Source: Alphaproteobacteria bacterium (lineage in GTDB: Bacteria > Pseudomonadota > Alphaproteobacteria > ATCC43930 > CGMCC-115725). Taken from it: a stretch of DNA of 51,592 nucleotides. The stretch is from the NCBI GenBank assembly GCA_021325525.1, contig JAJPHB010000050.1:1-51592 (forward strand), written 5' to 3'. Position 1 is the first letter of the stretch; each line of letters opens with the position of its first letter. Below, in pieces: positions 3,488 through 39,973 of this stretch. Below the pieces are notes generated by a model. That model saw only the letters and a list, made by a program, of their open reading frames with translations, searched no databases and had not been told where the DNA came from. The translations under genes were made by a program, and so were the position numbers.

Positions 3488-5503
3488 ATGCGCGCACTCG
3501 ACAATCTCGGCACACGGGCGAAGATGTACGTGATCTGCGCCGTCTTCATTGCCCCGGTCGTCTACGCCGTCTGGAGCTATGCCGCGCAGAAGCGCGAGCT
3601 CATCACCTTCGCCGAGAAGGAGCAGCGCGGCGCCGCTTATGCGACGGCGGTGCGCAGCGCCGTTGCCGCCGCGGCGGCGCGGCTGGCGGGTGGCGCCGGC
3701 GCCGCGCTCGGCGCCGCGAGCGAGAGGCTCGAGCGCACGGCCGGGGCCGCTGGTCACGGCATGGATACGGAAGACCAGCGCCGCGCGCTTGCGGAGGCGC
3801 TGCGCGCTCTCGCCGCGAGCGCCGGCAGCGAGGAGGCGGACGCCGCCTTCGCTGCCGTCCTCGGCAAGGCCGCGGCGCTCGCCTCGCGCATCGCCGACGA
3901 CTCCAACCTGTCGCTCGATCCCGACCTCGACAGCTACTACACGCAGGATCTCGTCATGGGCAAGCTGCCGGCGCTGCTCGACGACCTCGCCGAGCTGCGC
4001 CGTCTTCTGCGACGGATCGCAAAAACCGGCGCACCGACGACCGAGGAGGGCGTCGCCTATTTGACCCTTCTGGCACGCCTCAAGGACACTGCCGAAGGCG
4101 CGAAAGCCGATCTTGCCAGCGCCGCTCGCGGCCGCCATGGGCGCGCGATCGAGCGCGAGCTCGGCGGTCCGGCGACCGCCTTCGTCGAGGTGATGGCTCG
4201 GCTTGCCGCCACCCGCGGATCGGCGGCCGATGCCGGGAAGACGCTCGACCTCGCCGCGGCCGAGCGCGACGCCGCGGCCGCATCGCGGCAGGCCTTCATC
4301 CTCTGGGACGATGCCGCCGCGGCGCTCGACCGGCTGCTGGCGTCCCGGATCGGCGAATTGCGCCTCTCGCTGTGGGCGACGCTCGGCATGGCGATGCTGC
4401 TTCTGGCGCTCTCCTTCGGCCTTGCGACGCTCATCGCCCGGCGGATCGCGGGGCCGCTCGGCCGCCTCGAAGGCCTCGCCAAGACCGTGCGCGAAACCAA
4501 TGACTACAGTCTGCGCAGCGACTACGCGGCGCGCGACGAGGTTGGCCGCCTTGCCGGGGCGTTCAACGCGATGCTGGCGGAGATCGCCGAGAGCCGCGAG
4601 CGGCGGACCGGCGAGGAGGCCGAGCGCGAGCGCCTGCGCGCAGCGCAGGAGAAGCGCGCCCGGCGCCTTGCCGAGCTGACGGAGGGCTTCGAGCGCGAGG
4701 CTGCGGGCGTCGTCGAGACGGTGTCCGGTGCGGCCGCCGAGATGCAGAGCGCAGCGAGCGCGATGGTCGCCAATGCCGAGCAGACGACGCGGCAATCGAG
4801 CACGGTCGCCGCCGCCTCCGAGCAGACATCGACCAATGTGCAAATGGTGGCGACCGCGGCCGAGGAGCTCGCCGCGTCGATCGCCGAGATCGGCCGCCAA
4901 GTCGCGCAATCGACGGCGATGGCGCAAACTGCCGTCGGCGAGGCGGAGCGCGCCAACACGACCGTCAAGAGCCTTGCCGAAGCCGCGCAGCGGATCGGCC
5001 AAGTCGTCGATCTCATCAACTCGATCGCGGGGCAGACCAACCTCCTCGCCCTCAATGCGACGATCGAGGCGGCGCGCGCGGGCGAGGCGGGCAAAGGCTT
5101 CGCCGTCGTCGCCGCGGAGGTGAAGAGCCTCGCCAACCAGACGGCGAAGGCGACGGAGGAGATCGCGGCGCAGATCGCCGGGATTCAGCAGTCGACGGGC
5201 GAGGCGGTGACCGCCATAGAGCGGATCGGCGAGACGATCGAGGAAGTGAGCGAGATCGCCACCTCGATCGCCTCGGCCATCGAGGAGCAGAGCGCGTCGA
5301 CCCAGGAGATCGCGCGCAACGTGCAGCAGGCGGCGGCGGGCTCTCAGGAGGTGTCGGGCACCATCGCCGAGGTGACGTCAGCCGCGACCGATACGGGCAA
5401 GACGGCGCATGCGGTGCTCGCCTCCGCGACCGGCCTTGCCGCCCAGGCGAAGCTGCTCCAGGCCGAAGTCGACCGCTTCCTCGGCGAGGTCAAAGCGGCG
5501 TGA
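3488..5503 (+). CDS. Methyl-accepting chemotaxis protein
   Basis: Inner-membrane chemoreceptor of 671 residues that signals to CheA/CheW. A strong ribosome site, GAAAGGAGG, sits 7 bases before the ATG. The order is: first membrane helix about residues 14-34; a long alanine-rich helical periplasmic domain to about 293, containing [18 protein letters not shown]; second membrane helix about 294-316; HAMP domain about 317-370; cytoplasmic signalling domain about 395-665. The hairpin tip carries [20 protein letters not shown] and [19 protein letters not shown] at about 509-550, which is diagnostic. No C-terminal CheR-binding pentapeptide is seen. It stands alone between hyuB and hyuA of module 1, both on the other strand, so it may sense the substrate of that module, but this is inference from position. 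Confidence 0.97.
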
Positions 5504-5536
5504 AACGCAATTCCCTTGGCGCGACCAAAAAACATT

Positions 5537-5690
5537 CCTCGCCCCGCTTGCGGGGAGAGGAAGGGGCTCATTGCGAAGCAATGGAAAGGTGAGGGGGTTG
5601 ATTCAGTGCACTCGTCTTAACGATCGAGCGATCTGCGAAAATACCCTCACCTCAATCCTCTCCCCGCATCGCGCGCATCGCGGTAAGAGG
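5537..5690. repeat. Palindromic doublet repeat, copy 1, overlapping the hyuA 3' end
   Basis: Two hairpin units face each other. The left unit is cctc-g-ccccg-cttg-cgggg-a-gagg at 5537-5560. It is followed by ggtgaggg at 5588-5595, whose complement ccctcacc lies at 5644-5651, and then a right unit at about 5656-5690 (cctct...agagg around ccgc...gcgg). The plan, hairpin, agggtgaggg-like word, spacer, ccctcacc word, hairpin, matches the copies at 17031-17171 and 39853-39973. It lies between the convergent chemoreceptor and hyuA genes, and its right part encodes the end of hyuA. It may also serve as a bidirectional terminator. Confidence 0.75.
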
Positions 5691-7788
5691 AGGTCAGTAC
5701 GCCCCCCGCTTCCGTGCGCCGCCGCAGCTCGATATAGCCGAAGCCGTCGATCATCGCCTCGAAGCGCGGGCTGACGATGGTCGAGGTCTCGTCCTCGGCG
5801 ATGACGGCGGGGCCGCCGACGACGGCGCCGGGCGGCAGATCGCGGCGGAGATAGACGGCGGCGTCGAGGAATTCGCCGGCGACGGGATCGAAGATGCGGC
5901 GCCGCCCGGCGGGCGCGGGCGCTGACGGCGCCAGGGCGGCCGGGGCATCCTCGGCGGCTTCGACGGGCGCGCTCAGCGTCAGGACCCAGCTCAGGATCTC
6001 GACATCGACGCCGGGGATGGTGCGCTTGTAAAGCGTGCGGTAGGCCGCCTCGAAGGCGGCGAGCAGAAGCCGCGCGTCCTCGGCGGCGTAGCGGCGGACG
6101 GGAAGCGCCACCGGAATCTCGTGGCCCTGGCCGCGATAGCGCATGAAGGCGGAGCGGGTCTCGGCGAGCGGCGCATCGCCGGCGCCGCGCCGCACGATCG
6201 CCTCCGCCTCGCTCCGCATCTCGCCGAGAATGCGGTTCGCCGTTGCCGCGTCGAAGGCGGAGAGGCGCTGCAGATTGGTGCGCACGATCTCGTAGGCGAC
6301 GGGCGCCCGCAGGAAGCCTACCGCCGAGCCGACACCGGCGTTGGCCGGGACGAGCACACGGTCGATGCCGAGCTTCTCGGCGACGCGCGCCGCATGGAGC
6401 GGCGCCGCGCCGCCGAAGGCGATGAGCGTCCGCCTGCGCAGATCCTTGCCGCTCTCGATGGCATGGACGCGCGCCGCATTCGCCATGTTCTCGTCCACCA
6501 TCTCGCTGATGCCGACCGCGGCGAGTTCGAGCGGGAGCTCCAGCCGCTCGCCGATGGTCCCGATCGCCGCCGCCGCGGCCGCCGTATCGAGCGGCAGCTT
6601 GCCGCCGGAAAAGGCGGCCGGATCGATGCGGCCCAAGGCGAGGTCGGCGTCGGTCACCGTCGGCGCGGTGCCGCCGCGGCCATAGGAGGCGGGGCCGGGC
6701 TCCGAGCCCGCGCTTTCCGGGCCGACGGCGATGCGGCCCATTTGATCGACGCGCGCGATCGAGCCGCCGCCGGCGCCGATCTCGACCATCTCGATGACCG
6801 GGATGCGCAGCGGGATGCCGCTCCCCTTCTTGAAGCGGTAGATGCGCGCCACTTCGAAAACGCGGTTCGTCTGCGGCCGCGCCTTATCGATGAGGCAGAT
6901 CTTGGCCGTCGTGCCGCCCATATCGAAGGACAGCACCTCGTCGAGGCTTCGCTGGCGGGCGATGTGGCTGGCGAAGATGGCGCCGCCCGCCGGCCCCGAT
7001 TCGACGAGGCGGACGGGAAAGCGGATCGCCGTCTCGATGGTGGTGAGGCCGCCGCCCGACAGCATGAGAAAGAGCGGACAAGCAAAGCCCGCGGCTTCGA
7101 GGTCGCGCTCGAGATTGCCGAGATAGCGCGCCATGAGCGGCTGGATGTAGGCGTTGGCGCAGGCGGTCGAGAAGCGCTCATATTCGCGCATCTCGGGCGA
7201 GACCTCGGAGGAGAGCGTGACGGGAAGGCCCGGCAGGCGCGCCGCCAGCAGTTCGGCGATGCGTCGCTCGTGCTCGGGGTTGGTGAAGCTGTGGAGGAAC
7301 CCGACCGCGACCGCCTCGATCCCTTGCCGCTCGATCTCGCCGATGACCCGGCCCGCATCGCCCTCGTCGAGCGGGGTGACGACGCGGCCCCGCGCGTCGA
7401 TCCGCTCAGCGACGCCGAAGCGCCAGCGCCGGGGCACGAGCGGCGGCGGCAAGTCGATGTTGACGTCGTATTGCTCGAAGCGGTTCTCGTGCCGGATCTC
7501 GATCGTGTCGCGGAAGCCCTCCGTCGTGATGAGCGCGGTGCGGGCGCCCTTGCGCTCGATGAGGGCGTTCGTCGCCAGCGTCGTGCCGTGAATGATGATG
7601 CCGAGATCGGCCGGCCGCAGCCGCGCCTCGTCGAGGACGCGAGCGATCGCCTGGAGGACGCCGCGCTCGGGCGCGCTCGCCGTGGTCAGCACCTTGGCGC
7701 TGAAGCGGCGGCCCTCGCTTTCGAGGGCGACATCGGTGAAGGTCCCGCCAATATCGACGCCGAGACGCGCTTTCTGCCTGGGCTGCAC
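5647..7788 (-). CDS. hyuA: Hydantoinase A / oxoprolinase-type ATPase subunit (module 1)
   Basis: HyuA-family subunit of 713 residues with the actin/hexokinase-like ATP-binding fold; it supplies phosphate for ring opening with HyuB in the cytoplasm. It starts LGVDIGGTFTDVAL (phosphate-1 loop). Other family blocks are HGTTLATNALIERKGA, SGPAGGAIFASHIA, DMGGTTAKICLIDKA, GAGGGSIARVDQMG and SEPGPASYGRGG. The start is GTG at 7788; no ATG lies between it and the first strand, and no clear ribosome site precedes it. It is 84 bases downstream of, and on the same strand as, the unknown gene of the polysaccharide locus, so it could be read from there. The last 15 or so residues (from about TSSYRDARDAG to the stop) are encoded by a palindromic repeat and are not expected to be part of the family fold. 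Confidence 0.93.
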   Translation of the reverse strand: MQPRQKARLGVDIGGTFTDVALESEGRRFSAKVLTTASAPERGVLQAIARVLDEARLRPADLGIIIHGTTLATNALIERKGARTALITTEGFRDTIEIRHENRFEQYDVNIDLPPPLVPRRWRFGVAERIDARGRVVTPLDEGDAGRVIGEIERQGIEAVAVGFLHSFTNPEHERRIAELLAARLPGLPVTLSSEVSPEMREYERFSTACANAYIQPLMARYLGNLERDLEAAGFACPLFLMLSGGGLTTIETAIRFPVRLVESGPAGGAIFASHIARQRSLDEVLSFDMGGTTAKICLIDKARPQTNRVFEVARIYRFKKGSGIPLRIPVIEMVEIGAGGGSIARVDQMGRIAVGPESAGSEPGPASYGRGGTAPTVTDADLALGRIDPAAFSGGKLPLDTAAAAAAIGTIGERLELPLELAAVGISEMVDENMANAARVHAIESGKDLRRRTLIAFGGAAPLHAARVAEKLGIDRVLVPANAGVGSAVGFLRAPVAYEIVRTNLQRLSAFDAATANRILGEMRSEAEAIVRRGAGDAPLAETRSAFMRYRGQGHEIPVALPVRRYAAEDARLLLAAFEAAYRTLYKRTIPGVDVEILSWVLTLSAPVEAAEDAPAALAPSAPAPAGRRRIFDPVAGEFLDAAVYLRRDLPPGAVVGGPAVIAEDETSTIVSPRFEAMIDGFGYIELRRRTEAGGVLTSSYRDARDAGRGLR

Positions 7789-17030: not shown

Positions 17031-17171
17031 CCCTCTCCCGCTTGCGGGAGAGGGGTCAGGGTGAGGGCGAGTCCGTCGTATTCTACGGCTTCAATTTGTT
17101 GCAGCACCCCTCACCCTTCTCTCTCCAAGGAGGGGAGAGGGTTTTTCAAAGGTCTCGCAAGCGGGAGAGAG
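17031..17171. repeat. Palindromic doublet repeat, copy 2
   Basis: Left hairpin: ccctctcccgc (17031-17041), tt, gcgggagaggg (17044-17054). It is followed by agggtgaggg, a spacer, then cccctcaccc and a gggagaggg-rich right unit, with a further gcgggagag arm reaching 17171. The 24-base left hairpin is identical to the one at 39853-39876. It lies between parC and the TusA-like gene and may act as a transcription barrier after parC. Confidence 0.75.
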
Positions 17172-39852: not shown

Positions 39853-39973
39853 CCCTCTCCCGCTTGCGGGAGAGGGTTAGGGTGAGGGCAAGTCGTTGTG
39901 TCTCGATGATTTGAATCCGGCGGCGGTCCCCCTCACCCTCCCCTCTCGCCGGAGGGGAGAGGGTTTTGCAAAG
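39853..39973. repeat. Palindromic doublet repeat, copy 3, inside the liv operon
   Basis: The left hairpin ccctctcccgc (39853-39863), tt, gcgggagaggg (39866-39876) is identical to copy 2. It is followed by ttagggtgagggcaagtc, a spacer, then ccccctcaccctcccctctc and a ggaggggagagggtttt right unit ending near 39973. It separates the binding-protein gene from livH and could stabilise the upstream mRNA 3' end, as such elements do in other binding-protein operons. Confidence 0.75.

Follow-up and report, generated by a model that had tools for sequence, protein, structure and literature searches.

In the 51,592-nucleotide stretch of alphaproteobacterial DNA analysed here, which we call the window, the open reading frame (ORF) of hyuA runs at its 3' end into a copy of a dispersed repeat doublet that supplies both the tail of the protein and its stop codon, a reading to which we assign a probability of roughly 0.78. 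The feature at hyuA is one copy of a dispersed REP-type doublet, built from two inverted hairpin units with CCCTCACC/GGTGAGGG boxes and a variable linker. Events of this kind, in which a repeat provides a protein tail or a stop, or a palindrome lies within a gene, DNA-repair genes included, have been described before, in other bacteria and for other repeat families; the most interesting result is the recurrence of palindromic inserts in the same DNA-repair protein loops of related species. The observation at hyuA was first made in an earlier note on this DNA, and that observation is true and its general idea sound; the stop-replacement mechanism that it put forward is unproven, and its view that such elements are rare outside Rickettsia is outdated.

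The palindromic doublet at the 3' end of hyuA spans about 5537-5693, and its parts are given in Table 1 together with the other features. The end GGGGAGAGG-AGG is common to three sister copies of the repeat (L003, L012 and L017), which sets the boundary between host and repeat near 5693/5694; codon 699 probably still has a host base (5694) in its first position. The HyuA C-terminus reads GYIELRRRTEAGGVL followed by TSSYRDARDAGRGLR and the stop, with 15 codons (699-713) inside the right half of the doublet and the stop TGA (5649-5647) read from AGG-TGA-GGG, that is, from the GGTGAGGG box of the right unit. Since the ORF crosses the right hairpin and ends at the TGA of the box, the repeat supplies both tail and stop, as had been claimed; the range first assigned to the element, 5644-5700, takes in the right unit together with seven bases of host sequence. 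The copies at 17 kb and 39.8 kb had been described as non-coding, and codon-model gene calls place both of them between genes. For parC, which lies beside the second copy, no sign of a repeat-derived tail was found, the model match reaching residue 740 of 741.

Table 1. Coordinates of the hyuA gene, of the repeat doublets in the window and of the genes elsewhere in the genome that carry in-frame palindromic inserts (window positions, or locus and positions within it).
Feature	Location	Strand	Details or basis
hyuA ORF, Hydantoinase/oxoprolinase A subunit	5647..7788	minus	GTG start, 713 aa; Pfam PF05378, PF01968, PF19278
Repeat-encoded hyuA end: codons 699-713 (TSSYRDARDAGRGLR) and stop TGA	5647..5694	minus	sister copies, homolog ends
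Left unit	5537..5595	plus	hairpin 5537-5560, inner palindrome ~5569-5583, GGTGAGGG 5588-5595; partial matches elsewhere in genome
Linker, 48 bases	5596..5643	no strand	differs between doublets, not conserved
Right unit	5644..5693	plus	CCCTCACC 5644-5651, TCAAT, hairpin 5657-5690, AGG 5691-5693; complement carries hyuA stop
Out-of-frame TGA at host/repeat junction	5694..5696	minus	one-base frame shift would give 697-aa protein
Run of six C (six G in hyuA), candidate indel or sequencing-error site	5702..5707	plus	sequence
Second doublet copy, intergenic, adjoins parC	17031..17141	plus	sequence and gene calls
Third doublet copy, intergenic	39853..39963	plus	sequence and gene calls
uvrC with in-frame doublet in RNase H-like domain, ~residues 464-527	L065:821-2950	minus	contig C105
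dnaE2 with in-frame doublet, ~residues 444-526	L058:673-3018	minus	contig C35
imuB-like gene with two palindromic inserts	L194:1006-2736	minus	contig C35
FAD/Fe-S oxidase gene with in-frame single unit	L212:1215-4001	minus	contig C79
tagF (type VI secretion) with in-frame doublet	L230:1531-2385	plus	contig C134

The repeat is more abundant than chance would allow. Across the 4.79 Mb genome, the pattern CTCACC-N(2-8)-CCTCTCCC has 139 exact matches and the reversed-pattern control has 1. In all, 16 strict inverted pairs were found; several of them, compared by linker, join unlike ones, such as CCCTGC with CCCCGA. A comparison of window positions 5530-5700 with the genome returned 21 further matches, of which the two longest, at 74-76% identity, span the greater part of it and the remainder are mostly partial. 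Folded as single-stranded DNA, the repeat region at hyuA has a z value of -5.24, with none of 200 shuffles as good; no structured-RNA match to Rfam was obtained in 5400-5800 up to E = 1. The 11-base core alone, with two mismatches allowed, is not enriched in the window (60 occurrences against 59.2 in shuffles), so that the case depends on the complete unit and on the genome-wide counts. An alignment of 23 repeat units was too gappy, and a gapless set of nine was aligned instead. Among the 61 genomes searched, the pattern is present in 44, the organism's own genome included, which is the richest with its 139 matches, the next holding 48. Counting against the main reading are the degenerate right hairpin of the hyuA copy and the fact that one base fewer in the C6 run would put the repeat outside hyuA, together with two negative results given below, that no close relative showed an empty site and that no mover was found.

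The ends of homologous proteins support a repeat-derived tail. The comparison took in 103 loci with HyuA relatives (L024-L038 and L078-L165, one of the searches behind them keeping the best 80 of 551) and left aside 14 more distant ones (L039-L052); 98 of the 103 had a readable end, and 85 of these ends were distinct. Among these relatives, all 85 distinct ends fall at query-equivalent positions 686-703, most often at 693 and then at 694; eight of them reach at least 698 and none reaches 704. Homologs had been expected to end earlier than this HyuA, and they do so by about 10-27 residues, mostly by 19-20. The closest relatives (about 70-74% identical, among the best 80 of 551) come from metagenome-assembled genomes labelled Xanthobacteraceae, Pseudolabrys, Rhizobium, Hyphomicrobiales or Alphaproteobacteria, which points to that order as the probable origin of the window. 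Distant homologs with the same C-terminal residues, which would have spoken against the repeat, did not appear among the homologs examined. The five loci that gave no readable end are two copies of a contig ending at the motif, two of a gene with an internal stop, and L038. The last of these, from genome G029, runs on without a stop into HyuB-like sequence, with residues unlike the TSSYRDARDAGRGLR tail, and is probably a natural HyuA-HyuB-like fusion. The gene seen twice, as L079 and L101, has its internal stop codon after about residue 207 and is possibly a broken gene or the product of a sequencing error. The same-genus genome G001 offered no empty-site comparison, being without this hyuA (its best match is 43% identical). 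In an AlphaFold2 model of HyuA built from 16 sequences (pTM 0.80), residues 651-690 have mean pLDDT values of 87-94 and residues 694-713 fall below 50; values under 50 also occur at residues 1-3 and in three stretches within the protein. The low values of the tail are partly expected, since the other 15 alignment rows are without it. The tail may well be neutral.

With regard to how the tail arose, a dispersed REP-type doublet now occupies the 3' end of hyuA, and the ORF passes through the outer hairpin of its right unit as TSSYRDARDAGRGLR and stops at the TGA in its GGTGAGGG box; either the insertion of the doublet would have removed the old hyuA stop, or the doublet would have landed just past that stop and a one-base shift would have followed. 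The first of these routes, in which the doublet landed in or just before the last hyuA codons, cut off the original stop and let a new ORF enter the repeat, is a tentative proposal at somewhat less than even odds. It is consistent with a tail that starts at the host/repeat junction, with the five in-frame internal insertions in the same genome, and with a published parallel, an amidase gene whose stop was lost to RU-1 (PMC2759123). Against it stands the host part of hyuA, which is free of in-frame stops to residue 698, beyond the ends of 77 of the 85 distinct homologs; with only eight of the 85 ends at 698 or further, little coding room was left for such an insertion. The TGA at the junction would moreover have to be a coincidence, out-of-frame stops of this class having a background rate of 0.0183 per codon.

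Under the second route, the doublet inserted just downstream of the original stop (TGA 5696-5694, giving a protein of 697 aa) and the G6 run later gained one base, which put that stop out of frame. This, too, may be entertained, at marginally lower odds than the first route: the TGA, in the +1 frame, ends at the junction, 697 aa falls within the range of homolog lengths, and in the relative G014 a similar palindrome begins two bases past the stop of its own hyuA. The route also needs a coincidence of its own, sites so near a stop being few (3 of 75 lie at 5 nt or less), and no sequence in the unshifted frame was seen. With the same junction TGA lying behind the six-base C run, a shift of one base, or a sequencing error, accounts for the tail about as well as replacement of the stop does. 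The latter possibility, an error of sequencing or assembly within the C6 run with a real hyuA of 697 aa and a repeat lying wholly between genes, agrees with the draft state of the assembly (172 contigs) and with a homopolymer that adjoins a strong hairpin, but is unlikely, as it comes with no positive sign of error and does not touch the internal insertions, which are independent of the C6 run because the same loops bear inserts in relatives from other assemblies. Of the earlier statement that repeat insertion had replaced the stop and added a new tail, the repeat-encoded tail is thus upheld, and the removal of the stop by the insertion itself is not established in view of the junction TGA and the C6 run.

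A search for the repeat inside other genes had also been suggested, and it was found in frame in uvrC, dnaE2, imuB, a FAD/Fe-S oxidase gene and tagF. For this analysis the neighbourhoods of the listed copies were fetched and gene calling used a codon model that had been trained on the window; this gave 98 sites, corresponding to 117 units, among the matches listed. Seven of these 98 sites share more than half a unit with a predicted gene, five internally and in frame and two at the C-terminus, in DNA of which 87% was called coding (overlapping stretches being counted more than once). The oxidase gene holds a single unit, and the other four genes, uvrC (where one box is altered), dnaE2, imuB and tagF, each hold a doublet; the second palindromic insert of imuB, which the search pattern does not match, lies near the N-terminus. 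In the two tail cases, hyuA and a LysR gene (L204), the box is read as TGA; the four internal cases with a box read it as GGT-GAG. Three of the five genes with internal inserts are repair or translesion genes, a small number, and since imuB and dnaE2 lie close together on contig C35, at most two of the repair-gene cases are independent. The LysR gene stops at the TGA of a repeat box, and it was rejected as a second tail case because the evidence is weak: only its last eight residues are repeat-encoded, and the ends of its homologs are mixed, two of the three fetched (of 8 listed) ending near query-equivalent 298 and one at about 332. Taken as a whole, the element would seem to spread as mobile DNA of a non-autonomous kind and to survive within genes when it is in frame and falls in a loop or a tail.

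The repair-gene loops were also compared across relatives. For UvrC, 30 relatives were searched, 28 matched and 23 were aligned, and 21 of the 23 are without a palindromic insert at about residues 464-527; several of them, most of all G006, G010 and G015, have longer loops of unrelated sequence. The other two, G001 and G014, carry their own, different palindromic inserts in the same loop, and that of G014 is repeated across its genome (87 match rows, both strands counted). For DnaE2, all 18 relatives searched were matched and 15 were aligned; G001 and G011 have their own doublets in the same loop, G003 and G029 have shorter extensions, and the remaining aligned relatives, G005 aside, have short loops. 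In the dnaE2 region of G005 (L262), the same loop holds an insert with inverted repeats of different sequence, which, judged from its letters, looks like another repeat family. For ImuB, 24 relatives were searched, of which 21 gave a match and 17 entered the alignment. The insert of G001 lies in the same (second) loop and, compared at the peptide level, matches the insert of the G001 DnaE2; G003, G006 and G028 have other extensions, and the rest are short. Outside the repair genes, three plasmid-borne homologs of the FAD/Fe-S oxidase are about 20 residues shorter at the insert site, and the two tagF homologs fetched were too divergent for a clean insert boundary. It would be a bold reading of these data, and one we regard as quite improbable, that the same UvrC, DnaE2 and ImuB loops have been colonised again and again, in several genera of this alphaproteobacterial family, by palindromic doublets of more than one sequence family, through a selected change in repair or through spread tied to these genes, with the hyuA tail as a by-product.

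Several readings of the element itself were considered and rejected. No mover was found, the organism's genome having no match to PF01797, the family of the Y1 (RAYT) transposase. This profile is present in nine of 41 genomes, namely in two of the ten with at least 20 pattern matches and in seven of the 31 others; a RAYT-driven REPIN was rejected on both counts, absence from the genome itself and a presence in relatives that does not track repeat number, though a mover may have been lost. Terminator-like placement was likewise set aside: among the 75 intergenic sites that have the 3' end of a gene beside them, 15 are no more than 15 nt from its stop, against 12.6 expected, and the neighbouring genes are convergent at 14, tandem at 61 and divergent at 11 of 86 sites. 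As for a CcrM-associated intergenic repeat (CIR), GANTC occurs in none of the 16 strict linkers (shuffle mean 1.5, maximum 5), and in three of 19 once the window's own three are added, linkers alone being scored. The site is seen by eye once in each of the window's three linkers, at 5600-5604, 17069-17073 and 39913-39917.

Several known repeat systems invite comparison. Judged by its letters, the unit resembles the G/C-rich intrastrand triplex motif (TM, TMECO) that Holder et al. described in 2015 from more than 260 genomes, partly as inverted pairs (PMC4666352). The likeness lies in the order of stem, loop, stem, loop and third strand, in inverted pairs of about 100 bp and in a mostly intergenic location. 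The left unit of the 39.85 kb copy, CCCTCTCCC-GCTTGC-GGGAGAGGG-TTA-GGGTGAGGG, corresponds to the type A of that paper save for the first loop, and the layout, including the G-rich third strand (GGGTGAGGG), is seen in this copy and in many units when compared by eye with Table 1 of the paper. In E. coli, according to the same source, all 23 copies are intergenic and inverted pairs always couple a type A with a type B unit; here, unlike in E. coli, seven of the 98 sites among the matches listed overlap genes, and many units, the hyuA copy included, are extended or degenerate. As the paper gives the intergenic location for E. coli alone, it may not be a defining trait. A search of the open-licence literature returned no report of this motif family inside genes.

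The Rickettsia palindromic elements (RPE) lie in frame in conserved genes and also between genes (PMC2229807, PMC10969869), and a review from 2024 describes the in-gene case in Rickettsia as unusually frequent (PMC10969869). The present element shares with them its in-frame position within conserved protein genes and its intergenic copies; compared by eye with what is described for RPE, it differs in the sequence of the unit, in its GC-rich host and in having only a minority of its sites in genes. The GTAG/CGTC REPs of many species are in part intragenic, with excinuclease genes and dnaE2 singled out and with REP ends that supply stop codons (PMC3733652). They share with the present repeat the small-hairpin dimers, the mostly intergenic location with some copies in genes, the excinuclease and DnaE2 targets and the stops supplied by their ends; here, however, the unpaired conserved tag is CCCTCACC/GGTGAGGG and the genome has no detectable Y1 transposase, and for these two reasons the element is held to be separate from the GTAG/REPIN systems. 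Fusions with RU-1 (ERIC) have been reported in Erwinia and other enterobacteria, including the amidase ECA3499 with its lost stop (PMC2759123), in which, as in HyuA, tail and stop come from a dispersed repeat and homologs end earlier; by its description, RU-1 differs from the hyuA repeat in being a 127-bp enterobacterial repeat. In-gene repeat fusions outside Rickettsia are also described for Neisseria elements (PMC2229807). The statement that in-gene palindromes are known mainly from Rickettsia has thus been overtaken by the published cases of Erwinia RU-1/ERIC, of Neisseria and of the GTAG/CGTC REPs (PMC2759123, PMC2229807, PMC3733652). No paper on the insert peptide strings, or on REPINs with RAYT in alphaproteobacteria, was found in the open-licence literature.

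These data indicate that a common bacterial repeat motif, reported as strictly intergenic in E. coli, makes protein sequence in an alphaproteobacterium outside Rickettsia. For annotators, it follows that an unusual C-terminal tail beside a repeat of this kind may itself stem from the repeat. Palindromic inserts occupy the same UvrC, DnaE2 and ImuB loops in more than one species and, in the case of the first two proteins, in two or more genera, in agreement with the bias toward DNA repair reported in 2013 for other REP families (PMC3733652); the question of whether such inserts alter repair or are simply tolerated thereby becomes testable on defined proteins.
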